Shown here in pieces: positions 38,550 to 64,000 of a DNA stretch of 64,000 nucleotides (position 1 is its first letter; each line of letters starts with the position of its first letter). The notes below the pieces were generated by a model that worked only from the letters and a program-made list of their open reading frames with translations, was not told the origin of the DNA and did no database searches. Origin of the DNA: Anaerolineales bacterium (lineage in GTDB: Bacteria > Chloroflexota > Anaerolineae > Anaerolineales > Villigracilaceae). The stretch covers positions 1 to 64,000 of the forward strand of contig JADLBX010000008.1 in assembly GCA_020847435.1 (NCBI GenBank). The letters are read 5' to 3'. Position numbers and translations under genes: made by a program.

Positions 38550-38577
38550 TTGACAAATCTCAAAAACAACTTATACT
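38550..38577 (+). promoter_or_regulatory. Promoter of the trpB2 operon
   Basis: TTGACA at 38550-38555, 16-base spacer, TATACT at 38572-38577. The same hexamers and spacing precede the bzdN-like gene at 57848-57875. Confidence 0.8.
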
Positions 38578-38580
38578 AAT

Positions 38581-38623
38581 CATATCTCACTTTTTTTACG
38601 ATGTGATTAAATAGTGAGATATG
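38581..38623. promoter_or_regulatory. Shared operator, copy 1
   Basis: Perfect 10-base arms CATATCTCAC and GTGAGATATG, 23 bases apart, with ACGATGTG in the middle. The 38-bp segment from TCTCAC to GATAT matches the site at 57883-57920 at 34 of 38 positions. It starts just after the -10 box, so a bound regulator would block transcription. The PaaX-family protein encoded in operon 2 is the obvious candidate binder. Confidence 0.75.
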
Positions 38624-38658
38624 TTTTCAGGCGGTTTTTCCGAGGCTGGAGGTTCTGC

Positions 38659-38871
38659 ATGGCTTTATGGCGCTTCGATCGGCGGCGGGATCAATCGGTG
38701 GAAGGTCTCAACGCGGGACGGCGGAACATGGCGGAAACTGCCGGCTTCCCATGCTTGAAGCGTTGGCGCAAAACGGGGCGAAAAGAGTTCGGTTATTTTC
38801 AATTTATTTTTCAGAAGATATCGCAACATGGCGTTGCGCAAATACACGATCAACCTTGCCGGAGCGGGTAA
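38659..38871 (+). pseudogene. Decayed N-terminal copy of the bzdN-like reductase gene
   Basis: An ATG at 38659 with GGCTGGAGG upstream opens a 70-codon frame. Its protein aligns with the start of the bzdN-like product: DQSVEGLN/NQSLEGIF, MAETAGFPCLKRWR/LAENADFPTVKRWR and FGYFQFIFQ/LGHFQVYFP. Similarity fades by about 38845. The promoter, operator and leader before it match those of the real bzdN. It is therefore a relic of a promoter-plus-5'-gene duplication; it could still be translated as a leader peptide. The rest of 38462-39087 shows no gene. Confidence 0.75.
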
Positions 38872-39087
38872 GGCGGGCTGATCGTTTCGCTCACTGGCGG
38901 AACGGTTTTGCCCGTCTGTTGTAAAGCGGAAAGCATGAGATCCGCTCGCATGATTGACTTGAACGCTCCATCGTTTGGAAAGTCGAAATAGCGTTTTGAA
39001 AACGGATAGGAGAAGCGTTATGGATGATAAATAAACCGAGAAAAAATCACTTCGTATCATTCAAATTCAACCCAGTGAGGAGCAACC

Positions 39088-40470
39088 ATGAGCGATCAGT
39101 ATAAGTACGTACTCACCGAAGACGAACTGCCGAAAGCTTGGTACAACATCAACCCGGATATGCCGGTGAACCCGGCGGAAACGGCGTGGAACGCGGTGTT
39201 GCATCCGGGCACCAAGGAGCCGGTGACGCCCGATTTCCTATCAGTCTTGTTTCCGATGAGATTTATCGGCGAAGCGGTCAGCATGGACCGCTGGATCGAG
39301 ATTCCCGAACCCGTCCGCGACATTTACAAACTGTGGCGGCCGTCGCCCCTGTACCGCGCCAGGCGCTTGGAGAAGGCGCTCGACACGCCCGCCCACATCT
39401 ACTATAAATATGAAGGCGTTTCGCCCGTCGGTTCGCACAAGCCCAACACCGCCATTGCCCAGGCGTTTTACGCGAAGGAAGAAGGCGTTACCGGTTTCAC
39501 CACCGAGACCGGAGCAGGGCAGTGGGGCTCGGCGATGTCCATGGCTTGTAATTTCTTCGGCTTGGAATGTCACGTGTATATGGTGAAGGTTTCCTACAAC
39601 CAGAAGCCGTACCGCCGCATCATCATGGAAACCTTCGGCGCGACCGTCACTCCCAGCCCCTCGAACAAAACCCAATACGGGCAGAAAGTGCTGGCGGACG
39701 ATCCCGAGAATCTTGGTTCGCTGGGGATCGCCATTTCGGAGGCGGTGGAGGCGGCGGCGACCTCCAATGGGAAATACAAGTACTCCCTCGGCTCCGTGCT
39801 TGGACCGGTGCTTATGCACCAAACGGTGATCGGCTTGGAATCTATCAAGCAGTTCGACATGGCGGGCGAATACCCGGACGTGGTCATCGGTTGCGTCGGC
39901 GGCGGGAGCAACTTCGCCGGGTTTGCCTTCCCCTTCATCCACAAGAACTTGACGGAGGGACAGAAGACCAAAGTCGTTGCCGTCGAGCCGACCGCCTGCC
40001 CGACGCTCACCAAGGGGAAATACACCTTCGACTACGGCGACACCGCGCAGATGGCGCCCATCGTCAAGATGCACACCCTGGGTCACAATTTCGTGCCGGC
40101 AGGGATTCACGCCGGCGGTTTGCGCTATCATGGGATGGCGCCTCACGTTTCCGCGCTGGTGGACAGCGGACACATCCAGGCGATCGCACTTGACCAGTTG
40201 GACACGTTTGAAGGCGCGGCGATTTTTGCCAAGGCAGAGGGCATCGTCCCGGCGCCTGAATCGTCGCACGCCATCCGCGCCGCCATCAACGAGGCGGTCA
40301 AATGCCGCGAGGAGGGCGTCAAGAAAGTGATCGCCTTCAATCTTTCCGGTCACGGGCTCTTCGACCTGGGATCGTACGACGAGTACTTGAAAGGCAATCT
40401 CCAACGCTTCGAGTACCCCGCCGAAAAGATCGCCGAATCCATGAAGGAGTTACCGCAAGTGGCTCTGTAA
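39088..40470 (+). CDS. trpB2: Tryptophan synthase beta chain, TrpB2 type
   Basis: 460 residues, longer than TrpB1 (about 400), with the extended N-terminus of TrpB2. [15 protein letters not shown] near residue 84, [18 protein letters not shown] with PLP Lys118, [13 protein letters not shown] near residue 134 and [11 protein letters not shown] near residue 270 fit the family. TrpB2 enzymes do not need TrpA and condense indole with serine or, for the archaeal enzyme tested, O-phosphoserine. No trpA or other trp biosynthesis gene is present. It is first in a 15-gene operon for aromatic breakdown and next to a serine kinase-like gene, so assimilation of free indole into tryptophan is the likely job. 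Ribosome-binding site GAGGAG lies before the ATG. Confidence 0.9.
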
Positions 40471-40485
40471 CAGAGGCTAGCCCTT

Positions 40486-40521: not shown

Positions 40522-40555
40522 ATTCAGGAATCAAAGTAATGAGGATTGGCGTTCC

Positions 40556-41389
40556 ATGCGTACCCTCGAACCGTCTGAAATCCGCCTGCGTTTTGTGCCG
40601 CTCGAGAAATTGTTATTACACGAGGAAGACGACCCCAACCGCGTGAAGCGGATCGAGATTTCGCTCACGCGCGACGGGTTCCTGCGTAACCCCCCGATCG
40701 TGACGGAGTTCCGCTCCAAATACATCGTGCTGGACGGGGCGACGCGCGTGTCTGCGTTCCAGTCCATGGGCTTGCGCGACATCCTCGTCCAGATCGTGGA
40801 GTACGACCGGGAGACGGTGGACCTCAGCGTTTGGAACCACGTGATCGTTGGTCTGCCGCCCGATAAATTATTGGCGGATATTGCGGACATCGAAGAGTTC
40901 ACCCTGCAACGGATGGACGACACAACCGCCCTCCAGCGCTTGAACGACCGCGACATCGAGGCTTGCATCATCATGCGCAACGGCTCGCAGTTCGCAGTCT
41001 TGTGCGAAGGCGATATTTGCAACAAAGCGGATTTGCTTTGCCAGTTGGTTTCTGTCTATCGGGGGAAAGCGGAGGTCCACCGCACGGCGAGCGTCAACAT
41101 CCCCCCGCTGCTCAAAGAATATCCCGGCTTCTCGGCGGTCATCGCCTTTCCCGTGTACACACCGACGGATGTGGTCGAGATCGCCCTCAACGGGAGCAAA
41201 ATTCCGATGGGGGTGACCCGGCATCTCATCCCCGGGCGCGCGTTGGGGGTCAACGTTCCGTTGGAAAAATTCAAAGATTCTGCGCCGCTGGAGGAAAAGA
41301 ACGCGTGGTTGGATGAAAACGTCCGCCAGCGGCTGAAAGCGAACAAGATCCGGTTATATCAGGAACCGGTCTTTGTCTTCGACGAGTGA
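40556..41389 (+). CDS. ParB/Srx-fold serine kinase-like protein (SbnI/SerK type)
   Basis: 277 residues. The N-terminal ParB-like domain carries the features of the free-serine kinases SbnI and SerK rather than DNA-binding ParB: LLLHEEDDP with Glu23, matching the catalytic Glu after LH in SbnI; FLRNPPIV near residue 42; and LDGATRVSAFQSMG with Asp60, Gly61 and Arg64, matching the DGxHR motif. These enzymes make O-phospho-L-serine from serine and ATP or ADP. No helix-turn-helix or partner ParA is present. Its place between trpB2 and iorA suggests it feeds phosphoserine to TrpB2. Confidence 0.75.
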   Translation: MRTLEPSEIRLRFVPLEKLLLHEEDDPNRVKRIEISLTRDGFLRNPPIVTEFRSKYIVLDGATRVSAFQSMGLRDILVQIVEYDRETVDLSVWNHVIVGLPPDKLLADIADIEEFTLQRMDDTTALQRLNDRDIEACIIMRNGSQFAVLCEGDICNKADLLCQLVSVYRGKAEVHRTASVNIPPLLKEYPGFSAVIAFPVYTPTDVVEIALNGSKIPMGVTRHLIPGRALGVNVPLEKFKDSAPLEEKNAWLDENVRQRLKANKIRLYQEPVFVFDE

Positions 41390-41396
41390 AACGCCC

Positions 41397-43277
41397 ATGA
41401 GCACTCAACTCTTAACCGGTAACGACGCCATCGCATTGGGGCTTGTGGAACAGGGTTGCCGCGTAGCGACCGCCTACCCCGGCACGCCGAGCTCTGAAAT
41501 TCTGGCGGGGATCATCAAATATAAAAAAGCGCTCGACAAAGACCTCTACGCCGAATGGTCGGTCAATGAAAAGGTGGCGTTCGAGGTCGCGCTCGCCGCC
41601 GCGTGGACCGGACTGCGCGCCGCTGTGGCGATGAAACAAGTGGGCTTGAACGTCGCTTCCGACCCTCTTTTTAGCGCCGCGTATACCGGCGTCAAAGGCG
41701 GGTTTATCGTCATCCCCGCCGACGACCCGGGGCCGCACTCCTCCCAAACCGAACAGGATTCGCGCCTGCTGGCTCTCACCGCCAAAGTCCCCGTGTTCGA
41801 TCCCTCCACGCCAGCCGAAGCGCGGGAGATGATCGGCGACGCGTTCGTCCTTTCGGAACGGTTCAAGATTCCCGTCATCCTGCGTCCCACGACGCGCCTC
41901 TGTCACGCCGTCAGCCCCAGCGCCGACGCTCCCGCTTCTTCTTCCGACGGGAAGCCTGTTTCGCCAAAATTCCAAAAGGACCCAGCCCACTGGACCGCCA
42001 CACCAAAACTGCGCTACAAACTCCATACGGAACTCAATCAAAAATTGATCGAGATTGCCGCCGAGTTTGCCAATTCGAAATACAACTACATCGTGAACGA
42101 AGATCACGGCGGCGAGGTAGGCATCATCGCCTCCGGCGTCGCGTTCCACACGGCGCGGCAAGCCCTGCTCGAACTGGGCGTCCGCGTCCCGATGTTGAAG
42201 ATCGGCACGCCCTACCCTCTGCCCGTAAATTTGATCGAAGCCTTCTCCGCCCGCTTCGCGACCGTGATCGTCCTCGAAGAGCCGGACGCGTGCATCGAAC
42301 TCCAGATCCCGAATCGACAACGCGTCCGCGGACGACTCGACGGCAGTGTGCCCAACTCCGGCGAATTGACCCCGGAAGTGATGTTCTCCGTCTTGAGCAA
42401 ATCGTTATCGGGGGTGGGGATGCAAGTGAACCCCTCGCCCGAAGATGCGGACTTGAGCGCGGCGATCAAAAAACTGTCCCTGCCGGCGCGGCGACCGCGC
42501 CTGTGCCCGGGCTGTTCGCATCGTTCCGCGTTCTACGCCATGAAACAGAATTTCGGTCCGCGCGCCATCTACCCCGGCGACATCGGCTGTTACACGCTGG
42601 GGACGAACCTGCGCGCCGTGGATACGTTTGTGGACATGGGCGCTTCGATCACCATGGCGAACGGATTCTTCCAAGCCAACCGGCTCGTCGGCGACGACCG
42701 CGCCGTCATCGCGACCATTGGCGATTCGACCTTCCTGCATTCGGGCATTCCGCCGTTGATCAACGCCGTCCACACCGGCGCGCGCTTTGTCTTGTTGATC
42801 CTCGACAACCACACCACCGCGATGACCGGCTTTCAGCCGACGCCCGCCAACGATTATCTGGCAGACGGTTCGGAAGCGCCGCGCAAAGTTTCCATCCCCG
42901 ATCTCGTCCGCGCTTGCGGAGTCGAATACGTCAAAGTGACCGATCCGTACGAGCAGGAGGATTTCACTGCGATCCTGAACGAAGCGCAGGCTCACACGCA
43001 AGCCGCGGACGGCGGCGTGGCGGTCATCATCGCCGACCGACCGTGCGTTTTGTACGATAACGATCCCATCCTTGAACATCCGCTTCCCGTCGTCGTCACG
43101 GACGAATGCGACGGTTGCCGCTTCTGCACCGAAGCCTTCGAATGTCCCGCGCTCGTCCTGCGCGCCGACGGCAGCCGCGTGGACATTGACTACAAACTTT
43201 GCATAGACTGCGGTCAGTGCATTGACGCCTGCTACAAAGGCTTCATCGTGCCCAAACTGGCGGAGATGGTTGGATGA
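41397..43277 (+). CDS. iorA: Indolepyruvate:ferredoxin oxidoreductase, alpha subunit
   Basis: The start is ATG 41397, 7 bases after the kinase stop; 626 residues. The N-terminal pyrimidine-binding domain (LLTGNDAIALGLVEQGCRVATAYPGTPSSE), TPP-binding domain (PGDIGCYTLG, IGDSTFLHSGIPPL, LDNHTTAMTG) and a C-terminal ferredoxin domain with two 4Fe-4S motifs (CDGCRFCTEAFECP and CIDCGQCIDACYKG). With IorB it converts arylpyruvates plus CoA to aryl-acetyl-CoA, CO2 and reduced ferredoxin. Here it would turn indolepyruvate to indoleacetyl-CoA, and the reduced ferredoxin could serve the benzoyl-CoA reductase of operon 2. Confidence 0.93.
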   Translation: MSTQLLTGNDAIALGLVEQGCRVATAYPGTPSSEILAGIIKYKKALDKDLYAEWSVNEKVAFEVALAAAWTGLRAAVAMKQVGLNVASDPLFSAAYTGVKGGFIVIPADDPGPHSSQTEQDSRLLALTAKVPVFDPSTPAEAREMIGDAFVLSERFKIPVILRPTTRLCHAVSPSADAPASSSDGKPVSPKFQKDPAHWTATPKLRYKLHTELNQKLIEIAAEFANSKYNYIVNEDHGGEVGIIASGVAFHTARQALLELGVRVPMLKIGTPYPLPVNLIEAFSARFATVIVLEEPDACIELQIPNRQRVRGRLDGSVPNSGELTPEVMFSVLSKSLSGVGMQVNPSPEDADLSAAIKKLSLPARRPRLCPGCSHRSAFYAMKQNFGPRAIYPGDIGCYTLGTNLRAVDTFVDMGASITMANGFFQANRLVGDDRAVIATIGDSTFLHSGIPPLINAVHTGARFVLLILDNHTTAMTGFQPTPANDYLADGSEAPRKVSIPDLVRACGVEYVKVTDPYEQEDFTAILNEAQAHTQAADGGVAVIIADRPCVLYDNDPILEHPLPVVVTDECDGCRFCTEAFECPALVLRADGSRVDIDYKLCIDCGQCIDACYKGFIVPKLAEMVG

Positions 43278-43283: not shown

Positions 43284-43336
43284 TACCGCAAAATTTATTT
43301 TGCGACGCCCGAAACGCAAGATAAATCTTGCGCTAC
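43284..43336. repeat. Paired covarying palindromes before iorB
   Basis: CCGCAAAATTTATTTTGCG and ACGCAAGATAAATCTTGCG in the 71-base spacer, flanked by GTAC and CTAC ends that can also pair. Same family as 24668-24819. Confidence 0.8.
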
Positions 43337-43348
43337 TGTGAAAAAACA

Positions 43349-43951
43349 ATGAACTCACTCACTGCGCACGAACTCAAGATCGTCATCGCCGGCATCGGCG
43401 GACAGGGCATCGTCTTCCTCACGCGGCTGTTATCGCAGACCGCCGTCAACCTCGGCTACCCCGTCGTCGTATCCGAAACGCACGGAATGAGTCAGCGCGG
43501 CGGATCGGTCATCTCGCACCTCAAGATCGGCGGCAGTGAAGCGCCGCTCATCCAGCGCGGCTCAGCAGATGTGTTGATCGCCCTCGACGCCAACGAAGCC
43601 ATGCAAAATTTGGACTTCGTGCGGCGCGGCGGCACGGTCTTCGTCAGTTCCAATGCAGAGTTGCATCCCGATCTGCTCCCGCATCTCGAACGGCTGAACA
43701 TCCGCACGTTGCATTTCCCAGCCAGCGCCATCGCCGTCGAATTGGGTTCGCCCGAAACCGCGAACATCGTCATGGCTGGGTTCGTCTGCGCGTACGACGG
43801 ATTGAACCTCCCGCTCGAAGACCTGCAAGCGACCATCAAACAGATCGCTGGTCAAAGGGCGGAAGGGAATCTCAAAGCGTTGGCGGCGGGCTTTCAGGCG
43901 GGGAAGAAAAAGATCGAAGACGCCCAACCCCTCCCGGAAAATCTCCGGTAA
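43349..43951 (+). CDS. iorB: Indolepyruvate:ferredoxin oxidoreductase, beta subunit
   Basis: The start is ATG 43349 (MNSLTAHELKIVIAG), 200 residues. The gamma-type oxidoreductase domain begins at IVIAGIGGQGIVFLTRLLSQ and carries VSETHGMSQRGGSVISHLKIG near residue 44. It assembles with IorA. The next gene starts 6 bases after its stop. Confidence 0.93.
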   Translation: MNSLTAHELKIVIAGIGGQGIVFLTRLLSQTAVNLGYPVVVSETHGMSQRGGSVISHLKIGGSEAPLIQRGSADVLIALDANEAMQNLDFVRRGGTVFVSSNAELHPDLLPHLERLNIRTLHFPASAIAVELGSPETANIVMAGFVCAYDGLNLPLEDLQATIKQIAGQRAEGNLKALAAGFQAGKKKIEDAQPLPENLR

Positions 43952-43957: not shown

Positions 43958-44803
43958 ATGAATCCATTCGAGCATTTCACCCCTTCGAGTTTACCCGAGG
44001 CTCTATCCTTATTGGCTGAGCGCAACGGCAGCGCGGCGGTCATCGCGGGCGGCACCGACCTCTTACTGCGGATGAAGAGCGGGTTCGCCAAACCGCGCGC
44101 CGTCGTCAACCTCAAACGCATCCCCGACCTGCGCGGGATTTCATGCGACTCAAATTCAGGATTACGACTCGGCGCGTTGACCACCCTGCGAGATTTAACC
44201 CGCACGCCTCAAATCCGGGACCTTTACCCGGCGCTCGCCCTCACGGCTGGAGTCATGGCTTCGGAACAGATTCGCAATCTCGCCACGCTGGGAGGGAATC
44301 TCTGCAACGCCGCGCCTTCGGCAGACCTCGCCCCGCCTCTCATCGCCCTGGACGCGGAAGTCGCCATCGTCAGCCTCTCCGGCGAGCGACGCCTGCCCCT
44401 CGCCGATTTTTTCACGGGTCCCGGCAAGACCGTCCTACAGCGCGGCGAATTACTCAAAGAGATCGTCGTTCCTCCGCCGCTGGGCAAAACGGTTTACCTC
44501 AAACATTCGCCGCGCGCCTTCATGGACATTGCCATCGTCGGCGCGGCGGTGCGGATTCACAAACAGGGGAGCCAGTGCCGGCAGGCGCGCATCGTGCTGG
44601 GGGCGGTCGCGCCAACTCCACTTCGGGTAAGAAGCGGCGAAGAAATTTTGGAGGGACAAACCCTCAGCGTGGAGCGAATCCAAAAAGCCGCGCAGGCTTC
44701 CGCCGCATCCTGTTCGCCCATCAGCGACGTGCGCGGCGCGGCGTGGTATCGCAAACGCATGGTCGAAGTTCTGGTACGCAGAGGCATCGAAGCGACGCTA
44801 TGA
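43958..44803 (+). CDS. Molybdenum hydroxylase, FAD-binding subunit
   Basis: 281 residues of the CoxM/xanthine dehydrogenase medium-subunit type. AAVIAGGTDLLLRMKSG near residue 24 binds FAD, and IRNLATLGGNLCNAAPSADLAPPL near residue 106 is the second FAD motif. Part of a three-subunit enzyme with the next two genes, whose overlaps imply equal production. In this operon it would help hydroxylate the indole ring at C2. Confidence 0.92.
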   Translation: MNPFEHFTPSSLPEALSLLAERNGSAAVIAGGTDLLLRMKSGFAKPRAVVNLKRIPDLRGISCDSNSGLRLGALTTLRDLTRTPQIRDLYPALALTAGVMASEQIRNLATLGGNLCNAAPSADLAPPLIALDAEVAIVSLSGERRLPLADFFTGPGKTVLQRGELLKEIVVPPPLGKTVYLKHSPRAFMDIAIVGAAVRIHKQGSQCRQARIVLGAVAPTPLRVRSGEEILEGQTLSVERIQKAAQASAASCSPISDVRGAAWYRKRMVEVLVRRGIEATL

Positions 44804-45312
44804 AAACGCTCATCACACTCACGGTCAATGGCGACGCGCACGAACTTTACATTGACGCGCGGCGTACGCTGTTGGACGTACTGCGAAACGAACTCGGACT
44901 CATGGGCGCGCATCGCGGTTGCGACTCGGGCGACTGCGGCGCTTGCACCGTCATCGTGGACGGTCAACCGATGACTGCGTGCATGATGCTGGCGGCGGAT
45001 TGGAACGGCGCGGAGATTTTGACGGTTGAGGGTTTGACCCCCACCCAACCCTCCCCCATTTTCGAAGAAAATGGGGGAGGGCAAGGGAGGGGGTTGCACC
45101 CGATTCAAAAAGCGTTGGTCGAGAAGGGCGGCATCCAATGCGGATTTTGCACGCCGGGCTTTGTGATGAATATCAAAGCGTTGCTGGATGAAAACCCCAA
45201 TCCGACGGAAGACGAAGCGCGCGCGTGGCTGGCGGGAAATCTCTGCCGTTGTACGGGCTACGCAAAGATCATCGAGGCGGCGCTGAGCGCGGCGGGAGAG
45301 GCGCATGAATAA
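44800..45312 (+). CDS. Molybdenum hydroxylase, 2Fe-2S subunit
   Basis: The start is ATG 44800, overlapping the FAD-subunit stop (ATGA); 170 residues. The plant-type cluster uses Cys41, Cys46, Cys49 and Cys61; the second cluster uses Cys114, Cys117, Cys149 and Cys151 (CGFCTPG, CRCTGY). A palindromic insert at residues about 80-98 lies in the linker between the two domains and leaves all eight cluster Cys intact. Confidence 0.93.
   Translation: MKTLITLTVNGDAHELYIDARRTLLDVLRNELGLMGAHRGCDSGDCGACTVIVDGQPMTACMMLAADWNGAEILTVEGLTPTQPSPIFEENGGGQGRGLHPIQKALVEKGGIQCGFCTPGFVMNIKALLDENPNPTEDEARAWLAGNLCRCTGYAKIIEAALSAAGEAHE
45048..45095. repeat. In-frame palindromic insert in the 2Fe-2S subunit gene
   Basis: CCCTCCCCCATTTTC and GAAAATGGGGGAGGG around a GAA loop, with further G-rich sequence, encoding TQPSPIFEENGGGQGRG between the two iron-sulfur domains. 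Confidence 0.8.
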
Positions 45313-47668: not shown

Positions 47669-48790
47669 ATGAAGCGACCTCGATTCAATCCCAACCTGCA
47701 AAATACCCCGGTCTATGTGGCGGGCAGAGCCATTGAAGAGATTCAGGAAAAATACGGGCTGGAGCGGGTCGTCAAACTGGCGTCGAACGAAAGCCCGATC
47801 GGACCGTCGCCGCTGGCGGTGCAAGCCGCGTTGGAAGCGCTGGGGCAGGCGCATCGTTATCCCGGCGTGGCGGATGCAAACCTGCGCCGCAAACTGGCGG
47901 AGCGTCTTGCGCCCGATCTCAGCGAGGAAAATTTTGTCGTCGGCAACGGCGCCACGGATGTGATCCGCATGGTGACGCAGGCGTTCACCTTCGACGGCGG
48001 TAACAATGTGATGGCGACGGCGACCTTCCCGATGTATCACATCCTGACCGCCGCGTACGGCGGTTCATGCCGGACCGTCAGCCTGACTCCAACCTTCGAC
48101 TTTGATCTCGCCGGAATCTTAAACCAGATTGACGACGACACCCGCATTGTTTTTCTGTGTTCGCCGAACAACCCCACCGGCAAGATCATCGCACACAACG
48201 ATCTGGCGCGTTTCATGCGCGAGGTCCCCGAGCATGTGGTCGTGTTATTGGATGAATCGTATTACGACTACGTCGCCGACGCGCATTATCCCGACAGCCT
48301 GAGTTACGTCCGCGAGGGTCGCAACGTGATCGTCTTGCGTAGTTTTTCAAAAGCCTCGGGGCTGGCGAACCTGCGCGTGGGCTACATGATCGCGCCCGCC
48401 GAGATCGCCGGATACGTGCGTCACGCGCTGTTGCCGTTCAACACCAGCGACATCGCCCTCGCCGCCGCGTCTGCCAGCATGGACGACGACGAGTTCAACC
48501 AAAACCAGCGCCAGACGGTTTTGGCAGGGCGCGCGTACTTTGAATCCGCTTTCGACGAGTTGGACCTGTTCGCCATTCACAGCCAGGCGAACTTTGTGAC
48601 GATCGTGGAACCGCCCCTCGGCGCGGCGCGGCTGACGGAACTTTTACTGCAACGCGGGTTCATCGTCCGCGAGTTGACCACGTTCGGGATGAAGAACGCC
48701 CTGCGCGTGAGCGTCGGCGCGCCCGATGAAAACGAAGCGTTCGTGCGCGCGCTCAAAACCATTTTGGAAACGGAAGGAGTGACCGCGTGA
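47669..48790 (+). CDS. HisC-type aminotransferase, candidate tryptophan aminotransferase
   Basis: 373 residues, starting right after the Mo-subunit stop. Class I/II fold with VKLASNESPIGPSPLAV near residue 35, GNGATDVIRM near residue 92, CSPNNPTGKI near residue 168, LDESYYDYV near residue 194 and the PLP Lys in RSFSKASGLANLRVGY near residue 225. HisC-like enzymes include aromatic aminotransferases. No histidine genes are nearby; next to IorAB and TrpB2 the likely substrate is tryptophan, giving indolepyruvate. Confidence 0.88.
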   Translation: MKRPRFNPNLQNTPVYVAGRAIEEIQEKYGLERVVKLASNESPIGPSPLAVQAALEALGQAHRYPGVADANLRRKLAERLAPDLSEENFVVGNGATDVIRMVTQAFTFDGGNNVMATATFPMYHILTAAYGGSCRTVSLTPTFDFDLAGILNQIDDDTRIVFLCSPNNPTGKIIAHNDLARFMREVPEHVVVLLDESYYDYVADAHYPDSLSYVREGRNVIVLRSFSKASGLANLRVGYMIAPAEIAGYVRHALLPFNTSDIALAAASASMDDDEFNQNQRQTVLAGRAYFESAFDELDLFAIHSQANFVTIVEPPLGAARLTELLLQRGFIVRELTTFGMKNALRVSVGAPDENEAFVRALKTILETEGVTA

Positions 48791-49278: not shown

Positions 49279-49283
49279 ATTTC

Positions 49284-53892: not shown

Positions 53893-54006
53893 TGACCTGC
53901 AAAATGATTCAAACACAAAAGACACAAAGATCACGAAGGAAATTCTTTTAAAACCTTTGTGCACTTCGTGTCCTTCGTGTTTAGTTTTTTGGAATTAGGA
54001 GAATGT

Positions 54007-56155: not shown

Positions 56156-57814
56156 ATGACCCAAACCTTCGACCCCATCACACTCGAAATCCTCTGGCGG
56201 CGACTCATCTCCATCGTAGACGAAGCCGATGCCGCCGTAGCGCGCACCGCCTTCTCCAGCTTGCTGCGCGACGCGCACGATTACACCTGTATGTTCACCG
56301 ACCGTCACGGGCGCGAACTGGCGCAGGGGACTCTCGCCACGCCTGGTCAATCGGGCGCGATGGCGTTGGGCATTCAAAATCTGGTCAAAAAATTGCCAGC
56401 GGATCATTTCAAGCCAGGCGATGTCTTCATCACCAACGATCCGTGGGCGCTGGCGGGACACCTCAACGATATCTGCGTCTTCAGCCCGATCTTTCACAAA
56501 GACCAACTGGTGGCGTTTACCGCCTGCGTCCTGCATCACTCGGATATCGGCGGGCGCGTCGCGTCCGATAACCACGATGTCTTTGAAGAGGGACTGTTCA
56601 TTCCGCTGGTAAAACTCTACGCGGCGGGCGAACTCAACCAGGCGGTGATGGACATGATTCATTGGAACGTCCGCACGCCGGAGAATGTCATCGGCGATAT
56701 CCGCTCGCAGATCGCGGCGAACCACGTCTGCGCGGCGCAGGTTCAGCGCATGTTGACCGAATACCAACTCGACAATCTGGACGATCTCGCAAATGAAATC
56801 ATCTCGCGCAGTGAACAAAGTATGCGCTCCGCCATCGCTCAGGTTCCCGACGGCGTCTACCGCGCCGAGGGCGTCATCGAACAAGTGGAGGGGCAGAAGG
56901 ATATCGTCATCAAAGCGGCGGTCGAAATCAAAGACAGCGACATCTCTGTTGATCTCGCGGGTTCTTCGCCGCAGGTCAACTGGGGCGGCAATGTTGTTTT
57001 CAACTTCACTTTCGCCTACGTCCACATGGCGGTCAAAAGCATTTTCGATCCCGACCTTCCCAACAATCACGGGAGCGTCGCCGTCATCCGCCTCAACGCG
57101 CCCGAAGGCACGGTGGTCAATTGTCGTTTCCCAGCCGCGGTCGCGGCGCGGATGCAGATCGGTCATTTCATGACGGAGATCATCTATCGCGCCCTGGCTC
57201 AAGCCCTGCCGCATCGCGTCATCGCGGGGAGCGGCGGCACGCCCGCCACGATGAACGTCTTCTACGGGACGCGCAACGACGGTCGCCCCTGGCACGCGGT
57301 CGTCATTCGCGGCGGCGGCATGGGCGCGAGCGTTCGGCGCGACGGCGAAAACAGTTTCATCTTCCCCGCCAACGGAGCGAACACGCCCGCCGAGATTCTC
57401 GAAAGCGACACGCCGCTCATCGTCGAACGCCGCGAACTGCTGATGGATTCGGGCGGCGCGGGAAAATTTCGCGGGGGGCTGGGGACTCGCACCGTCATCC
57501 GTGTACCCGCTGGCGACCATGCGCCTCAGACTCCCGTCAGCCTGGGCATCCAGGCGGGACGCTTTCGCCTCCCCCCGGGCGGACTCGCTGGTGGGCAGGC
57601 GGGCGCGCGCGCAAAATTTCTCGTCAACGGCAAGGAGGGGAATCCCTACGGCTTGACCAAGCTCAACCCTGGCGATGTGGTTGTCATGGACGCGGCAGGC
57701 GGCGGCGGATACGGTCCTCCCTCCGAGCGTGACCGCGACGCGCTTGCCGAAGATGTCCGCGCGGGCAGGGTGTCGCAGAAAAAGGCGGAGGAGGATTACG
57801 GCGCCCAGGCGTAG
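56156..57814 (+). CDS. hyuB: Hydantoinase/oxoprolinase beta subunit (HyuB-like)
   Basis: 552 residues: FDPITLEILWRRLISIVDEADAAVARTAFS at the N-terminus, DVFITNDPWALAGHLNDI near residue 89, HHSDIGGRVASDN near residue 124 and MDSGGAGKFRGGLGT near residue 432, all typical of HyuB. It is the partner of HyuA and last gene of operon 1. The bzdN promoter lies in the 135 bases after its stop. Confidence 0.92.
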   Translation: MTQTFDPITLEILWRRLISIVDEADAAVARTAFSSLLRDAHDYTCMFTDRHGRELAQGTLATPGQSGAMALGIQNLVKKLPADHFKPGDVFITNDPWALAGHLNDICVFSPIFHKDQLVAFTACVLHHSDIGGRVASDNHDVFEEGLFIPLVKLYAAGELNQAVMDMIHWNVRTPENVIGDIRSQIAANHVCAAQVQRMLTEYQLDNLDDLANEIISRSEQSMRSAIAQVPDGVYRAEGVIEQVEGQKDIVIKAAVEIKDSDISVDLAGSSPQVNWGGNVVFNFTFAYVHMAVKSIFDPDLPNNHGSVAVIRLNAPEGTVVNCRFPAAVAARMQIGHFMTEIIYRALAQALPHRVIAGSGGTPATMNVFYGTRNDGRPWHAVVIRGGGMGASVRRDGENSFIFPANGANTPAEILESDTPLIVERRELLMDSGGAGKFRGGLGTRTVIRVPAGDHAPQTPVSLGIQAGRFRLPPGGLAGGQAGARAKFLVNGKEGNPYGLTKLNPGDVVVMDAAGGGGYGPPSERDRDALAEDVRAGRVSQKKAEEDYGAQA

Positions 57815-57949: not shown

Positions 57950-59116
57950 ATGACCAACCATCTATTCGGAACATGGCAGAATCAGTCGTTGGAGGGGATC
58001 TTCGCAGAGTGCCGCGAACTGGCGGAGAATGCCGACTTCCCGACGGTGAAACGCTGGCGCGAGAACGGGGGCAAGGTGCTGGGACATTTCCAAGTCTATT
58101 TCCCCGAAGAGATCGCTCACGCGGCGGGGATGCTGCCGCTCAAGATGCGCGGCGCGCCCGTCGAGCCGACGCACTCCGACTCACGCTTCGGTTCCTATCT
58201 TTGCTCGATCCTCAAAACCTCGCTCGAACTCGTCCTCAGCAATCGCGTCGAATTGGACATGTTCGTCACCCATCCCATCTGCGACGCGGCGCGCAATTTG
58301 GCGGCGGTGTGGGGACGCAACTATTCGTATCCGTGCCAAATCTTGTATCTGCCGCAAAACGCGAACTCGAAAGCCTCGGCGGAATATCTGCGCGGTGAGT
58401 ACGAGCGCGTGAAGGGCGACGTCGAAGCGGTGACGGGGAGCAAGGTCACGGATGAGGCGTTGAGAAACTCCCTCATCGTGTACAACGAAAACCGACGCTT
58501 GTTGCGCCAGTTGTACGAGATCAAACGCAAACAGCCCTGGCTCGTCACAGGCTTTGAGGCGTATCTGTTGATGACCGTCGGCGGGATGATTCTGCGCGAG
58601 GAGCACAACGAACTGCTCAAAACGGCGATTCCGCTGATCGAAGCGCGGCCAGCCAAACGTCAGGATAAGATTCGGGTCGTCTTCGAGGGCGGATTCTGCG
58701 AACAGCCTCCGCTGGACCTGATCCGCGCGATCTCCCAATCTTGCTACATCGTGGACGACGATTTGTTGATCGGCTTGCGCTGGATTCTCGAAGACATTCC
58801 GCTGGAGGGCGATCTGTTGATGAACATGGCGGACGCGTATCTGGAAAAATCGAGTTACAGCCCCGTTCAGCACGACGCGCGCAAGCCGAAGGAGAAGATG
58901 CTGTTACAGCGTATCGCGGACTCGGGCGCGGAGGCGGCGATCATCACCGCCGCCAAGATGTGCGAGCCCGGACTCGAAGACCAGGTGACGTACACCAAGG
59001 CGCTCGATGAAAAGGGCATTCCGTATTTTGTGGGTGAGTTCGAAGAGAACATGACTTCCTTCGACAGTATGGAAATTCAGTTGGAAACTTTCACGGAGAA
59101 TTTGATCTTTAGTTGA
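57950..59116 (+). CDS. bzdN: ATP-dependent benzoyl-CoA reductase subunit, BzdN/BcrC-like
   Basis: 388 residues of the 2-hydroxyacyl-CoA dehydratase/benzoyl-CoA reductase D family. Candidate cluster Cys are in FGSYLCSILK near residue 84, THPICDAARN near residue 111 and AAKMCEPGLEDQ near residue 343, fitting BcrC/BzdN. The start has TGGAGG upstream. Its 5' end and promoter were duplicated in front of trpB2. Gene order and sizes with the next three genes match bzdNOPQ of Azoarcus. A dehydratase for another acyl-CoA is the alternative, made less likely by bamA downstream. Confidence 0.85.
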   Translation: MTNHLFGTWQNQSLEGIFAECRELAENADFPTVKRWRENGGKVLGHFQVYFPEEIAHAAGMLPLKMRGAPVEPTHSDSRFGSYLCSILKTSLELVLSNRVELDMFVTHPICDAARNLAAVWGRNYSYPCQILYLPQNANSKASAEYLRGEYERVKGDVEAVTGSKVTDEALRNSLIVYNENRRLLRQLYEIKRKQPWLVTGFEAYLLMTVGGMILREEHNELLKTAIPLIEARPAKRQDKIRVVFEGGFCEQPPLDLIRAISQSCYIVDDDLLIGLRWILEDIPLEGDLLMNMADAYLEKSSYSPVQHDARKPKEKMLLQRIADSGAEAAIITAAKMCEPGLEDQVTYTKALDEKGIPYFVGEFEENMTSFDSMEIQLETFTENLIFS

Positions 59117-59217: not shown

Positions 59218-60513
59218 ATGACCGAAACCATACAAGATGAACTCGTAGGACGCGGCAACAAGGAAGGGGCGGACCTGTTCCGTGAGTGGTTCGACGGTTT
59301 GGCGGAACACGCCAAACGCGGCGAAGGCGCGGCGTATGTCTTTGTGATGGGCAGTATGGCGGAACTGTTGCATGTGTTCGATTTTCCGCTGGTACTGCCG
59401 GAGATCACCTCGCTTCAAACTGCCGTGCGGCGCGTGGCGGATAAATATCTCGCCGAAGCCGAAGATTACGGCTATTCGCCCGATATCTGCGGCTACGTCA
59501 AAGCGGATATGGCTGTGCAATTGCGCGGCGGCGATCACCCGATGGGCAGGATTCCCAAGCCCGCGATCGCGGTGATGACCAACGCCTGCAACACCTACAT
59601 CAAATGGGCGGAGATCTGGGAGCGGATGTACGGCACGCCGCTGTTCGTCATTGACGTGCCAGCCACGCGGCAGGCTGGCGGACAGTTCCAGCCGGGCAGC
59701 GCCGATTTCGAGCGCGACCGCAAATACGTCGAGGCGCAAATCCGTGAGTTGATTCCGCTTTGCGAAGAGGTCTCTGGCAAAAAATTTGACATTGACCGCC
59801 TGCGCGAAACGCTGAAATACGCCAACGACATGAACACCGGCTGGAAGCGCGTGCTGGAGTTGAACAAGAGCAAGCCGTCTCTCTTCAACGCGGTGACGGA
59901 CGGCACGGTCTACCTCGGCGTCTCGAACAATTTGCGCGGCACCGAAAAGGGCAGTACGTTCTTCAAGAACCTTGTGGAGGAAATGGAATATAAATCCGCG
60001 CACGGCATCGGCACGCAGATCGTGGAGAAATACCGCCTCGGCTTCGTCGGCGTGCCGTGTTACCCGATCTTCCGCCGCTTCAGCGAGATGTTCACAGAGT
60101 GGGGCGGCAACTTCGTCCATTCCACTTACCTCAACTTCGCTTCCGGCGGCGGCAGTATGGGCTACGAATACGATGTGAACCGTCCCATCGAAAGTTTGGC
60201 GGAGGGATTCCTGATCAGCGTGCGCGAGGCGATGGACAACATGTTCCACCAGGATCGCGTGGTGATCAGTTGGGTGAAGGATTACGACCTGGACGGCGTG
60301 GTCTATCACCCGATCAAATCATGCCGCACGGTTTCGACCGGTCTTGCCGACGGGCGGCGGGCGATGATGGCGGCGACCGACGTGCCCAGCCTGTTCATCG
60401 AATCGGACATGATGGACAAGCGCGTCGTTTCCGAAGCGCAGATGAAGAACCGCGCCGACGCTTTCTTTGAAGGGCTGGCGTCGCGGCGCGAGATGGCAAA
60501 GATAAGTTCATAA
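59218..60513 (+). CDS. bzdO: ATP-dependent benzoyl-CoA reductase subunit, BzdO/BcrB-like
   Basis: 431 residues of the same superfamily as Bzd[21 protein letters not shown] near residue 43, [21 protein letters not shown] near residue 120 and [18 protein letters not shown] near residue 363 hold the Cys expected to bind the shared 4Fe-4S cluster and the substrate-side residues. It forms the catalytic heterodimer with BzdN. Confidence 0.85.
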
Positions 60514-60515: not shown

Positions 60516-60593
60516 AGGTCGCTGCGAGCGAAGCGAAGCAGTCTCCTCGTAACAAGTTGGAGAGCGCTGAATATCGTCTCGCAATGACAAACC
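60516..60593. repeat. Degraded GTCATTGCGAG-type element
   Basis: CAGGTCGCTGCGAGCGAAGC on the left and TCTCGCAATGAC on the right, between bzdO and bzdP. It is less symmetrical than the copy at 59122-59203. Confidence 0.5.
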
Positions 60594-60610
60594 GACAACT
60601 GGAGGCAGGT

Positions 60611-61426
60611 ATGGCATACGCGGCAGGCGTTGACGTAGGCTCGACGCAAACCAAAGCGGTCATCGTCAATGAAGCAAGGGAGATCGTCGGACGCGCGCTG
60701 ATCGACACCGGCGCGAACGTCGTCCTCGCGGCGGAGAACGCCTTCGCCGAAGCGCTCAAGACCAGCGGCATCCGCGAAGAGGAAGTCGAATATGTGATCG
60801 GCACCGGCTACGGGCGGTATCGCGTCACGTTCGGCAACACGCAGGTGACGGAGATCTCCTGTCACGCACGCGGCGCGGCGCACATGTTCCCCGGCACGAA
60901 GACCGTGCTGGACATGGGCGGGCAGGATACCAAAGCCATTCACGTCAGCCCCAAGGGCGAAGTGCTCGACTTCTGCATGAACGATAAATGCGCGGCGGGA
61001 ACCGGGCGTTTCCTCGGCGCGGCGGCCGCGGCGTTGGATATTCCGCTGGGCGACCTGGGCAACGTGGCGATGAAAGCCGAAAGACCGGTCAAGATCAGCA
61101 CCACCTGCACGGTCTTCGCCGAATCTGAAGTGCTTTCGTGGCTGGGCAAAGGCAAAAAGATCGAAGATATTTTGTGGGGCGTGCATCTCTCCATCGCTTC
61201 CCGTTCGACCGCCCTGCTCCGACGCGTGGGCATCGAAGATGAAGTCACCTTCACCGGCGGCGTCACGCGCAACGCGGGGATGATCAAAGCCCTCGAAGGC
61301 GCGTTGAAGACCAAATTGAACGTCAGCGAAGATTCGCATTATATGGGCGCGTTGGGCGCGGCGCTCTTCGCGCTCGATCACATCCTGGCGGGACGCGTCC
61401 CTGTCGAAGAAAAGGAGACCGCATGA
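60611..61426 (+). CDS. bzdP: Benzoyl-CoA reductase activating ATPase, BzdP-like
   Basis: The start is ATG 60611 ([14 protein letters not shown]) after GGAGGCAGG; 271 residues. ASKHA ATPase marks: [24 protein letters not shown] near residue 107, the cluster-binding [12 protein letters not shown] near residue 127 and [12 protein letters not shown] near residue 160, with one Cys in each of the last two to share a 4Fe-4S cluster between subunits. It passes electrons to the reductase with ATP hydrolysis. Confidence 0.87.
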
Positions 61427-62250
61427 GCGTTTACACCACCGGCATTGACGTCGGCTCCACCTATACCAAAGCGGTCATTTTAGGCGACGACAATGAGATC
61501 GTCGCGCGCGCCATGGTCAACACCGGCTTCCGTCTCGAAGAAGCCGCGCGCAAGGCGTACAACAACGCGCTCGAACTCGCGGGACTGAATGAAGCCGATT
61601 CATCCTACCTTGTCACCACCGGCTTCGGTCGTCATCTGGTCGGCTTCCGCGACGTGAACGTGACCGACATCAACGCCAGCGCGCGCGGCGCGGCGTTCCT
61701 CTTTCCCAAAACCCGCACCATCCTTGATGTCGGCGGGCAGACGATGAAAGCCATCCAACTTACAGAAGAAGGCAGGGTCAAATCCTTCCGCCTCAACGAC
61801 AAATGCGCGGCGGGCACCGGCGCCTTCCTCGAAAAGACTGCGCGTTACATGGGCTACAAGATCGAAGAGATCGGCGCGCTCGCGGCGGTTTCCAAAACGG
61901 CAGTCCCCATCTCCGGCGTCTGCGCGGTCTTCGCCGAATCGGAGGTCATCAACCACCTCTCGCAAGGCATGTCGCCGTCGGACATCATGTACGGTTCCAT
62001 CGTTTCGCTGGTGGCGCGCTCGGTGCAACTCCTCAAACGCGTCGGCATGAATCCCGAGTTTACGCTCATCGGCGGCATCCTGCGTTTTGAATCCATGAGC
62101 CATGTTGTGCGCGAACAGATCAAAACCGAAGTCAACGTGGCGGAGGGTGATCTGGTCCAATACGTTGCCGCCCTCGGCGCGGCGATCCTCGGACGGCGGC
62201 GTCTCGAAAAATTGCGAAAAGAAGGGCATGCTGAAATCGCAGGTCGTTGA
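61423..62250 (+). CDS. bzdQ: Benzoyl-CoA reductase activating ATPase, BzdQ-like
   Basis: 275 residues, overlapping the previous stop (ATGA). Same ATPase fold: [29 protein letters not shown] near residue 104, [21 protein letters not shown] near residue 125 and [16 protein letters not shown] near residue 164. Two short activator paralogues, as here, are the Azoarcus Bzd arrangement; in Thauera one is longer. The P/Q assignment rests on gene order. Confidence 0.87.
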
Positions 62251-62273
62251 GACCTGCGATATTTCTGATTTTT
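62238..62273 (+). terminator. Candidate terminator or attenuator between bzdQ and the PaaX gene
   Basis: CGCAGGTC pairs with GACCTGCG around GTTGA, followed by a T-rich stretch ending TTTTT. The stem overlaps the bzdQ stop codon, so translation could influence it. Confidence 0.5.
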
Positions 62274-62286
62274 CCCGTAGAATCAC

Positions 62287-63132
62287 ATGATGTCCCCACT
62301 GACGCCTTCGGTCCGCACCCAATTTTTGATCTTCACCCTCTTCGGCGAATTCATCCTCCCGCGCGGCGGTTCCATCTGGACGGGCAGTCTGCTTACCCTC
62401 CTCGACCATCTCGGCGTCGGCGAGCGCGCCGCGCGGCTGACGCTCTCGCGCATGTCGAAAAAGGGCTGGCTGGCGGCGCGCAAAGAAGGGCGGCGCAGTC
62501 AATATTCATTGACGCCGCGCGGCTGGTCGTTGCTGGTGCAGGGCGGCAAACGCATCTTCGAACCGCCGCTCGCCGCATGGGATGGGATGTGGCAGATCGT
62601 CGTCTTCTCTTTGCCAGAGAAGAAGCGCAGTTTACGTCACGCCTTCCGCACGCGCCTGCCGTGGTACGGCTTCGGTCAACTCGCGCCCAACATGTGGATC
62701 GCGCCTCACAACCGCAAGACCGAGATCCTCGCCCTGTGCAGTGAACTGGACATGCAGGATCACGTCGAGATATTTTCGGGCGTCCACGTCGGACCGTCTG
62801 AAGATCGGGAACTTGTCCGCCGCTGTTGGAACTTGTCGCGCCTGGCAGGTCAATACAAAAAATTCATCGCCAAATTCGAAAAAGAATATCTTGCCTGCCA
62901 GAACAACGGCAACCTGACAGAGAAAATGGACGATTGCTTCGTCCGCCGCTTCTGGCTGCTACAGCATTACCAGCAATTCCCGCGCATAGACCCCAACCTG
63001 CCCGCCGCCCTGCTCCCCGCCGACTGGATCGGCTTCCGCGCGCGGCAATTGTTCGAAGATTATCGCGGCGTCCTCGAAGCGCCCGCCAACCAATTCGTGG
63101 ACGATGTGATCGGCGCAGTCAACGGCGCATAA
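62287..63132 (+). CDS. PaaX-family repressor
   Basis: 281 residues. The N-terminal winged helix of PaaX is at about residues 8-75 (FLIFTLFGEFILPRGGSIWTGSLL, ARLTLSRMSKKGWLAARKEG), then the central domain (MWQIVVFSLPEKKRSLRHAFRTRL) and a C-terminal PaaX_C region (FLLQHYQQF-like). The known PaaX responds to phenylacetyl-CoA. This one lies between bzdQ and bamA and may respond to indoleacetyl-CoA or another aryl-CoA, acting on the two matching operators. Confidence 0.88.
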   Translation: MMSPLTPSVRTQFLIFTLFGEFILPRGGSIWTGSLLTLLDHLGVGERAARLTLSRMSKKGWLAARKEGRRSQYSLTPRGWSLLVQGGKRIFEPPLAAWDGMWQIVVFSLPEKKRSLRHAFRTRLPWYGFGQLAPNMWIAPHNRKTEILALCSELDMQDHVEIFSGVHVGPSEDRELVRRCWNLSRLAGQYKKFIAKFEKEYLACQNNGNLTEKMDDCFVRRFWLLQHYQQFPRIDPNLPAALLPADWIGFRARQLFEDYRGVLEAPANQFVDDVIGAVNGA

Positions 63133-63138
63133 AAAACG

Positions 63139-63160
63139 TACCGCAAAGTTCACTTTGCGT
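63139..63160. repeat. Single covarying palindrome before bamA
   Basis: ACCGCAAAGTTCACTTTGCG, one unit of the family seen at 24668-24819; the second hairpin of the pair is missing or degraded here. Confidence 0.7.
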
Positions 63161-63209
63161 TTTCACTGTGCGCTTTACATTCCCGCTCAGTTCAAAACTG
63201 GAGACCTCC

Positions 63210-64000
63210 ATGGACGTACTGAAAAACCAAAAAACCGACTTCAAAGAAATCCTCTACGAAAAAGGGAATTGGGTGGCGCGCATCACCATCAACCGCCCGC
63301 AGGTCTACAACTCCTACAGCACCAGCGCGCTCGAAGAGCTGGCGACCGCGTTTCGCCAAGCCGCGTTCGACGACGAAGTGGCGGTCATCGTCCTCACGGG
63401 CATGGGCGACAAAGCCTTCTGCACGGGCGGCGACGTGAAGGAATATCAGGAACGCTACACCCGCGCGCCGCACGACTATTGGAAGTACATGCGCCTCTTC
63501 GGCGCGTACATCGAGAGCATCGTCAACACGGGCAAACCCGTCGTCGCGCGCATCAACGGCATGGCGGTCGGCGGCGGCAACGAATCGAACCTCGCCTGCG
63601 ACCTCGCCGTCATCGCCGAACACGCCTGGGTCGGACAGGTCGGCACAGGAGTCGGGAGCGTCGCCGCGGGCGGCGCGACGCAATGGCTGCCGATCACGGT
63701 CGGGGATCGCCGCGCCCGCTACATGTTAATGACGAACCGCCGCGTCCCCGCCTATCAAGCCCTCGAGTGGGGACTCGTCAACGAGGTCGTGCCATCCGTC
63801 AAAAAAGACGGCGCGTTCATCGAGCGCGCCACGCCCGAGCAGATCGCCAAAGCCCAAAAAGGCGCGGACGGTTACAGCATCAGCCTCGAAAAACTCGACC
63901 AAGCCGTGGACGCGCTCGCGCAGGAGCTCGTGGATAAATTTGCCGAGTGCATCCGCTACACAAAAGAGAACGTCAACTTCTGGAAAAATTTCGGCTGGCA
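63210..64000 (+). CDS. bamA: 6-oxocyclohex-1-ene-1-carbonyl-CoA hydrolase (BamA/Oah), partial
   Basis: Starts at ATG 63210 and stays open to the window end, so the last third of a roughly 380-residue protein is missing. Crotonase-fold marks of this branch: AFCTGGDVKEY near residue 70, GKPVVARINGMAVGGGNESNLACDLAV near residue 110, the long QVGTGVGSVAAGGATQWLPITVGDRRAR near residue 143 and the family-specific WGLVNEVVP. BamA opens the ring after benzoyl-CoA reduction. Its presence supports aromatic ring degradation rather than amino acid fermentation by the dehydratase-like genes. Confidence 0.9.
   Translation, partial: MDVLKNQKTDFKEILYEKGNWVARITINRPQVYNSYSTSALEELATAFRQAAFDDEVAVIVLTGMGDKAFCTGGDVKEYQERYTRAPHDYWKYMRLFGAYIESIVNTGKPVVARINGMAVGGGNESNLACDLAVIAEHAWVGQVGTGVGSVAAGGATQWLPITVGDRRARYMLMTNRRVPAYQALEWGLVNEVVPSVKKDGAFIERATPEQIAKAQKGADGYSISLEKLDQAVDALAQELVDKFAECIRYTKENVNFWKNFGW

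Follow-up and report, generated by a model that had tools for sequence, protein, structure and literature searches.

A conserved gene block in Chloroflexota suggests anaerobic breakdown of free indole by way of tryptophan

Introduction

Among the main products of bacterial tryptophan use is indole, which is also a signal and a pollutant. Knowledge of how strict anaerobes dispose of it comes largely from intermediates, as outlined in PMC6221969. Here we analyze a block of genes from an Anaerolineales bacterium (assembly GCA_020847435.1) in a window that comprises positions 1-64,000 of contig JADLBX010000008.1. The block lies on the plus strand and extends from a trpB2 gene at 39088 through genes for an aromatic-coenzyme A (CoA) reductase and paaX to a BamA-like gene at the window end. 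We suggest that this block, hereafter the unit, encodes a pathway for the anaerobic breakdown of free indole via tryptophan, and we consider this reading likely.

In the anaerobic route of Aromatoleum aromaticum, indoleacetyl-CoA is processed with the help of a CoA-transferase, a B12-dependent mutase and the decarboxylating dehydrogenase IaaF; its iaa operon resembles the unit in encoding the CoA-transferase, the mutase pair and an acyl-CoA dehydrogenase with a GGG motif (PMC8360864), and also in the lactamase role of HyuAB (PMC5214803). The two systems differ at their entry: Aromatoleum relies on uptake involving IaaM and on the CoA ligase IaaB, whereas in the unit the shared part comes after TrpB2, a predicted serine kinase and IorAB. 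Moreover, the unit has an aminotransferase inside it, and reductase and ring-opening genes follow downstream in the same run. We take the roles of the molybdenum (Mo) hydroxylase and HyuAB in the unit to match those in the Aromatoleum route.

Three further systems cover other parts of the unit. Known TrpB2 enzymes, which share with the unit protein the subfamily and the GLRYHG motif, appear in the literature in the context of tryptophan synthesis or indole salvage, whereas the unit TrpB2 heads a catabolic run. SbnI and SerK share with the unit kinase the fold, the position of the catalytic Glu and the pairing with a pyridoxal 5'-phosphate (PLP) dependent beta-replacement enzyme; SbnI serves SbnA. 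In the case of SerK the partner is CysK (PMC5120207), whereas in the unit it is TrpB2, and identity in the fold alignments is only 17-22%. The class I benzoyl-CoA reductase pathway (Bcr/Dch/Had/Oah) is paralleled by four reductase subunits and Oah-, Dch- and Had-like genes, although the corresponding proteins here all score below the curated cut-offs. Finally, the oxindole-isatin-anthranilate route described in PMC6221969 shares with our proposal indole as substrate and independence from oxygen but adds no side chain and has other intermediates.

In the titles and abstract openings of the literature searched we found no such indole-via-tryptophan pathway; subscription papers lay mostly outside that search, making this weak evidence of absence. 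What is new is the front half, i.e. the entry by TrpB2, the kinase and IorAB, while the back half is the known indoleacetate route. A defined gene set makes anaerobic indole removal testable and predicts an unusual flow of carbon in which one serine is spent per indole; if the proposal is true, TrpB2 gains a catabolic role.

Results and discussion

Family searches found the enzyme families named in an earlier note on this DNA, which had proposed the indole pathway, at the places and on the strand given there (Table 1); a methylmalonyl-CoA-epimerase-like protein was added. Between trpB2 and paaX (39088-63132), adjacent genes are separated by -17 to +135 bases. For the BamA-like gene, the true start is probably near 63228, and the match in the relative G012 spans 72% of the open reading frame (ORF). 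G numbers denote genomes (the window's own, G000, and 60 relatives) and L numbers loci; L003 is the window contig (C8) including the part past the window.

Table 1. Genes of the unit and further features, with family scores in bits (curated cut-offs in parentheses)
Feature	Position	Strand	Matches and remarks
trpB2, TrpB2-type tryptophan synthase	39088..40470	+	NF009057 702.9 (366); TIGR01415 632 (518.9)
serK-like, predicted free L-serine kinase of the SbnI/SerK kind	40556..41389	+	SbnI 79 (350); SerK 37.9 (380)
iorA, indolepyruvate:ferredoxin oxidoreductase alpha	41373..43277	+	TIGR03336 641.9 (650.9)
iorB, indolepyruvate:ferredoxin oxidoreductase beta	43328..43951	+	NF004916 134.7 (227); Pfam POR
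Mo hydroxylase, FAD subunit	43958..44803	+	XdhB 230.8 (310); Pfam FAD_binding_5
Mo hydroxylase, 2Fe-2S subunit	44803..45312	+	approximate start within ORF 44143-45312, about residues 221-384 of which are matched by XDH-type small-subunit models
Mo hydroxylase, molybdopterin subunit	45305..47668	+	4-hydroxybenzoyl-CoA reductase alpha 588.4 (994.6); Pfam MoCoBD_1/2
HisC-type aminotransferase	47669..48790	+	TIGR01141 300.4 (276.6)
Methylmalonyl-CoA-epimerase-like protein	48787..49224	+	TIGR03081 111.9 (115)
Family III CoA-transferase, putative IaaL-like role	49251..50477	+	Pfam CoA_transf_3 269.1
Acyl-CoA dehydrogenase, IaaF-like	50588..51742	+	GGG replaces YEG (LLYGGGTSEV)
B12-binding mutase small subunit, putative IaaGH-like role	51818..52222	+	TIGR00640 145.5 (57.5)
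Mutase large subunit, putative IaaGH-like role	52291..53892	+	TIGR00641 605.1 (303.8)
HyuA-type ATP-dependent lactamase subunit	53959..56085	+	Pfam Hydantoinase_A 269.9; caprolactamase alpha 528.5 (1000)
HyuB-type lactamase subunit	56156..57814	+	Pfam Hydantoinase_B 509.3
Aromatic-CoA reductase subunit, BcrC-like	57950..59116	+	TIGR02263 (BcrC) 264.9 (421.2); BzdN 109.4
Aromatic-CoA reductase subunit, BcrB-like	59218..60513	+	TIGR02260 (BcrB) 211.5 (486.6); BzdO 92.2
Aromatic-CoA reductase ATPase/activator subunit, BcrA/BzdQ-like	60557..61426	+	TIGR00241 262.8; TIGR02259 (BcrA) 212.7 (578); TIGR03192 (BzdQ) 199.3
Aromatic-CoA reductase ATPase/activator subunit, BcrD-like	61423..62250	+	TIGR00241 219.7; TIGR02261 (BcrD) 146.9 (313); BzdQ 138.4
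PaaX-type regulator	62287..63132	+	Pfam PaaX, PaaX_M, PaaX_C; between reductase and BamA-like genes
BamA/Oah-like ring hydrolase	62826..64000, continues past window	+	TIGR03200 193.6 in-window part, 210.8 whole ORF (464.5)
Crotonase, MaoC, short-chain dehydrogenase/reductase (SDR), thiolase	L003:2173-5577 = contig 64172-67576		candidates for hydration, oxidation, thiolysis
Lrp-type regulator	27867-28349		accompanies tyrosine phenol-lyase
Tyrosine phenol-lyase	28372-29784	+	TIGR02618 760.7 (720.7); about 9 kb upstream of the unit

We infer the following series of reactions, with their substrates and directions: (i) the kinase would convert serine to O-phospho-L-serine, (ii) TrpB2 would condense indole and O-phosphoserine to tryptophan, and the phosphate released would make indole capture irreversible, (iii) the HisC-type aminotransferase would turn tryptophan into indolepyruvate, (iv) IorAB would yield indoleacetyl-CoA, CO2 and reduced ferredoxin, (v) the Mo hydroxylase would hydroxylate indoleacetyl-CoA at C2 to 2-oxoindoleacetyl-CoA, (vi) HyuAB would open the lactam (the oxindole ring) in an ATP-dependent manner, (vii) the CoA-transferase would shift CoA to the carboxyl group adjacent to the ring, (viii) the B12 mutase would form (2-aminobenzyl)malonyl-CoA, (ix) the GGG dehydrogenase would oxidize and decarboxylate it, (x) a hydratase, an SDR and a thiolase would produce 2-aminobenzoyl-CoA and acetyl-CoA, and (xi) the Bcr-like reductase together with Dch-, Had- and Oah-like enzymes would dearomatize and then open the remaining ring. 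In this scheme serine would be sacrificed to supply indole with the side chain required further on. Each indole would cost one serine and one phosphate bond; in return, it would be captured irreversibly at low concentration. Free oxindole and isatin would not be formed.

The logic of the scheme lies in the side chain. Indole lacks one and the CoA-transferase, the mutase and the GGG dehydrogenase need one of two carbons; TrpB2, the aminotransferase and IorAB would add exactly what is missing. Indole crosses membranes, and the lack of a transporter gene in the unit fits such a compound: a family search detected none among the 34 genes called from trpB2 to a LeuB-like gene past the window (ORFs shorter than about 100 amino acids lay outside the scan). 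We infer that free indole rather than tryptophan is the main substrate.

The earlier note would have taken a lack of conservation of the gene set in relatives as a refutation; we found the set to be conserved as a unit. Although 40 of 61 genomes (the window's own and 60 relatives) contain a kinase homologue of some kind, identity reaches at least 49% in nine only (at least 294 bits; next 175). A contig scan with an alignment of the nine unit kinases returned 13 loci, whose titles name Anaerolineales, Caldilineales, Ardenticatenaceae or Chloroflexi. Of these, 12 are of the unit type (44-83% identity); the remaining one, L056, falls with the paralogues in the kinase tree and was not counted. Because six of the 12 coincide with genomes already in the set (G001, G013, G014, G038, G052 and G054), the unit kinase is present in 15 distinct genomes. 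In a midpoint-rooted tree of 34 kinases these 15 proteins group apart from the paralogues with support 99/96. trpB2 and iorA flank the kinase gene in all 15 genomes, directly in 13 of them, although in three (G038, G039 and G054) trpB2 is seen as a fragment at a contig edge; in the window the kinase and iorA ORFs overlap by 17 bases. We dismiss a chance grouping of genes, since other families also include genomes with this gene order.

In the two genomes without direct adjacency (L053 and L054), genes for a class V aminotransferase and a phosphoglycerate dehydrogenase (SerA-like) are inserted between trpB2 and the kinase. The SerA-like protein scores 428 bits with the SerA model (cut-off 454) over the first 302 of 525 positions and lacks the C-terminal part; the best models for the aminotransferase are class V enzymes other than SerC. 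SerA and a suitable aminotransferase lead to O-phosphoserine, and we take these two genes as a second sign of phosphoserine supply. In Desulfurococcales, Makino et al. found serK next to genes for a SerA-like protein and an aminotransferase and interpreted this neighborhood as serine assimilation (PMC5120207); gene order alone therefore leaves the direction undecided.

The chief rival explanation is that the unit degrades imported tryptophan and that the sole purpose of TrpB2 and the kinase is to recover indole that has leaked or been released by tryptophanase. An aminotransferase and IorAB, both encoded in the unit, are a usual start of tryptophan oxidation in anaerobes, and a tryptophanase-family gene on contig C57 of the window's genome (L102:2078-3460; NF009709, 697 bits; below both the TnaA and the tyrosine phenol-lyase equivalog cut-offs) as well as a tyrosine phenol-lyase gene upstream of the unit argue that the organism handles aromatic amino acids. 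However, all 16 genomes examined, the kinase-less G059 included, have trpB2 upstream of iorA, and an operon-borne SerA-like enzyme and aminotransferase in two genomes would be a heavy investment for mere recapture. Moreover, matches of 256-273 bits to the Beta_elim_lyase family, the two of which in the window's genome are the tyrosine phenol-lyase and the tryptophanase-family gene, are confined to five genomes of the same genus; G038, G039, G052 and G054 each have one match of 360-380 bits, perhaps a threonine aldolase, in addition to weak ones. We therefore regard tryptophan as the main substrate as unlikely, while giving it more weight than any other alternative, and favor free indole.

The later genes of the unit are seen in fewer genomes because contigs often end soon after the front end. 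Among 16 genomes including G059, we detected iorB in 13, the Mo subunit and the aminotransferase in 10 each, the IaaF-type dehydrogenase in eight, HyuA in four and the reductase beside the unit in three; the CoA-transferase, B12 mutase pair, Mo hydroxylase and HyuAB occur together in G012, G014 and G039 as well as in the window. The co-occurrence that the earlier note had suggested examining was borne out across the 61 genomes: the unit kinase is found in nine, the IaaF-type dehydrogenase in eight (E 1e-120) and the BcrC-like subunit in nine (E 1e-100), with kinase and reductase together in eight and kinase and dehydrogenase in seven. Fisher's test, which ignores shared ancestry, gives 2.7e-8 for kinase/reductase and 6.4e-7 for kinase/dehydrogenase, and, with the same reservation, 4.1e-5 and 1.3e-3 for the 43 genomes outside the genus. 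Within the genus the unit is patchy (5/18 genomes), and this patchiness together with the shared content suggests that the unit moved as a block. It is rare: in a phylum sample of 301 genomes the kinase was detected at E 1e-60 only in the window's own genome. A search of a plasmid collection for the IaaF-like protein (E 1e-80) gave no match. On a broader view, we lean towards the idea that anaerobes activate an inert aromatic compound by condensation with a sacrificial amino acid, resulting in indole mineralization without oxindole or isatin, and that this ability has spread between Chloroflexota families as one block.

The kinase falls below the SbnI and SerK equivalog cut-offs and is a predicted relative of these proteins rather than SbnI or archaeal SerK proper. 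A profile built from 16 kinase homologues recovered SbnI at 2.5e-30 and SerK at 2.2e-10 in hmmsearch, and the AlphaFold model (mean predicted local distance difference test score 89.3) matches SbnI and free serine kinase (5uje and 5x0k) with TM 0.71-0.82. E23 aligns with E30 of SerK, mutants of which are mentioned in PDB titles. The low family scores could mean that this protein is a regulator or a nucleotide-binding protein and not a serine kinase, and a SerK-like archaeal fusion has been reported to bind CTP and not ATP (PMC12704722). Nevertheless, the fold match to SbnI and free serine kinase covers the whole length with 231-277 columns as opposed to about 80 for ParB, and the Glu at the E30 position and the DGxxR motif are invariant in 16/16 aligned homologues, leaving a regulatory role hardly credible. 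We propose that the kinase is a free serine kinase-like supplier of O-phosphoserine.

The genomic surroundings of other family members are in line with such a function, in that some sit beside PLP-dependent beta-replacement enzymes, which replace the serine side chain. Of eight paralogue loci checked for such neighbors (L036-L042 and L056), two (L038 and L039) have the paralogue adjoining a cystathionine/cysteine-synthase-type enzyme, a hint that cysteine synthesis in Chloroflexota may depend on phosphoserine. Similarly, on contig C23 of G020 (L096:16476-18745) trpB2 overlaps the gene for a distant kinase paralogue; no other gene of the unit lies close to this stand-alone pair.

The TrpB2 of the unit scores well above the curated subfamily cut-off. 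Against solved chains it reaches 449 bits with 6hul and 378 bits with 4qys, both of which we take to be TrpB2-type, and at most 134 bits with the next group. The motif GLRYHG is found in 36/36 near-full-length TrpB2 sequences, 12 of them from units (the fragments in G038, G039 and G054 were left out), whereas TrpB1 of the window's genome has GLDY, i.e. Asp in place of Arg. Since unit and other TrpB2s all carry it, GLRYHG marks TrpB2 generally and not the unit; its Arg may contact the phosphate. TrpB2 enzymes are described as using O-phosphoserine (PMC11917138, citing Busch 2014) and as binding indole with high affinity (PMC11917138). A 2007 gene-neighborhood analysis detected no conserved neighborhood of trpB2 outside trp operons (PMC1854888). 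In the TrpB2 tree, a second TrpB2 of G039 (contig C44, L103:1-7554) groups with some unit TrpB2s. The ORFs that follow it, judged from their first residues, presumably encode a thiamine-pyrophosphate-enzyme fragment and two cyclase-family proteins.

Alternatively, TrpB2 and the kinase could salvage tryptophan for protein synthesis and lie beside a catabolic operon by chance. Earlier papers assign TrpB2 an indole-scavenging role or a high affinity (PMC2700814, PMC11917138), TrpA was undetected in three of the ten genomes with a whole or partial unit (G001, G038 and G052), and the pair in G020 has no adjoining catabolic genes. On the other hand, TrpA is present in the other seven, and separate trpC, trpF, trpB1 and trpA genes on contig C48 led us to reject TrpB2 as the biosynthetic enzyme in the window's genome; TrpB2 is spare in most genomes with the unit. 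The position of the trpB2-kinase pair upstream of iorA in 15/15 genomes, the overlap between the kinase and iorA in the window and the separate grouping of unit kinases likewise speak against salvage, which we hold to be distinctly improbable.

The back half of the unit looks iaa-like, its entry does not. The claim that the CoA-transferase, B12 mutase and acyl-CoA dehydrogenase match the Aromatoleum route stands, and it is strengthened by the dehydrogenase motif: IaaF is a benzylmalonyl-CoA dehydrogenase of a subclass in which GGG takes the place of the YEG found in most acyl-CoA dehydrogenases (PMC8360864). GGG is present in all eight dehydrogenases found at E 1e-120 (the window and seven relatives). 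The predicted iaa operons of several strict anaerobes contain an electron-transfer flavoprotein (ETF) paralogue (PMC8360864); similarly, in G039 an ETF pair lies downstream of hyuAB, from which two other genes separate it. The operons of G039 and G052 include MaoC, SDR and thiolase genes. Predicted 2-oxoindoleacetyl-CoA lactamases are reported to cluster within the Hyd branch (PMC5214803). Family searches of the 39088-62250 run found neither the indoleacetate-CoA ligase IaaB nor the binding protein IaaM.

The four reductase genes had been labeled BzdNOPQ. An aromatic-CoA reductase set is indeed encoded, but we reject the Bzd label, as Bcr models outscore Bzd models for each subunit (Table 1). 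All four subunits stay below the Bcr cut-offs; the reductase is, on these scores, nearer to BcrCBAD than to BzdNOPQ and may work like BcrCBAD. Its substrate is probably 2-aminobenzoyl-CoA.

A further possibility is that the Mo hydroxylase turns indole directly into oxindole, which HyuAB would open as part of the oxindole-isatin route, with TrpB2 as an accessory. The anaerobic intermediates reported for consortia and for Desulfobacterium indolicum are oxindole, isatin and anthranilate (PMC6221969), as this explanation would have it. However, a succinate skeleton, for which the ring must carry a side chain of two carbons, is required by the CoA-transferase, the mutase and the GGG dehydrogenase (PMC8360864), and opening of oxindole without that side chain would leave all three without a substrate. 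This makes a direct oxindole route very improbable, and we favor entry via tryptophan.

Several observations, the reported intermediates among them, weigh against our proposal. (i) IorA (narrowly), IorB, the reductase subunits, the SerA-like protein and the kinase all score below curated cut-offs; for this reason the substrate names are extrapolated. (ii) No gene is assigned to removal of the amino group. (iii) G059 has paaX-trpB2-iorA with no kinase between and no unit-type kinase, its Mo subunits, aminotransferase, dehydrogenase and reductase being on separate contigs; this weakens the idea that the kinase is obligatory. A possible kinase fragment on contig C375 of G059 (L098) was discarded, none of the unit's genes being there. 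(iv) In G001, trpB2-kinase-iorA lies near a contig end, but an IaaF-type dehydrogenase, a reductase subunit and a unit-type Mo subunit were not found in this genome. (v) On the stretches examined, mostly short or broken contigs, hyuA was not seen in 11 of the 15 kinase genomes. (vi) Resolution in the TrpB2 tree is poor, and the unit TrpB2s do not form one clade in it. (vii) TrpB2 could serve biosynthesis in the three genomes in which TrpA was undetected. (viii) The tryptophanase-family gene on C57 could create a futile cycle. (ix) L049 has a phenylacetate-CoA-ligase-type gene upstream, and an acid activated by that enzyme is a possible substrate there. In addition, the search for the dehydrogenase at E 1e-120 gave no match in G038. 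In total, the conserved gene block is real, and the new entry into a known route is a well-supported hypothesis as far as genome data go; the interpretation put forward in the earlier note is supported.

Genes around the unit

The contig extends 14.8 kb past the window end. Hydration, oxidation and thiolysis steps had been recorded as unseen, which holds within the window, but candidates for all three lie just beyond it (Table 1); Dch is among the best-scoring models for the crotonase. Further downstream are genes for a thioesterase, a Had-like dehydrogenase, an amidohydrolase, a second IorAB and LeuA-, LeuC-, LeuD- and LeuB-like proteins. The amidohydrolase-2 protein (L003:7093-8004; L055:6417-7259) adjoins the unit in G000, G012, G014 and L055 and is a candidate for a hydrolytic or deaminating step.

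The G+C content from trpB2 to the LeuB-like gene is 0.594, versus 0.533 in the first 32 kb. Little speaks for an island with sharp G+C borders, as G+C climbs from about 32 kb, ahead of the unit.

The second IorAB and the LeuA-, LeuC-, LeuD- and LeuB-like genes occupy L003:8169-16624, the LeuD domain being fused to a CoA ligase. This module looks like one for 2-oxoacid chain elongation, and it recurs in G012 and partly in G014 and L049.

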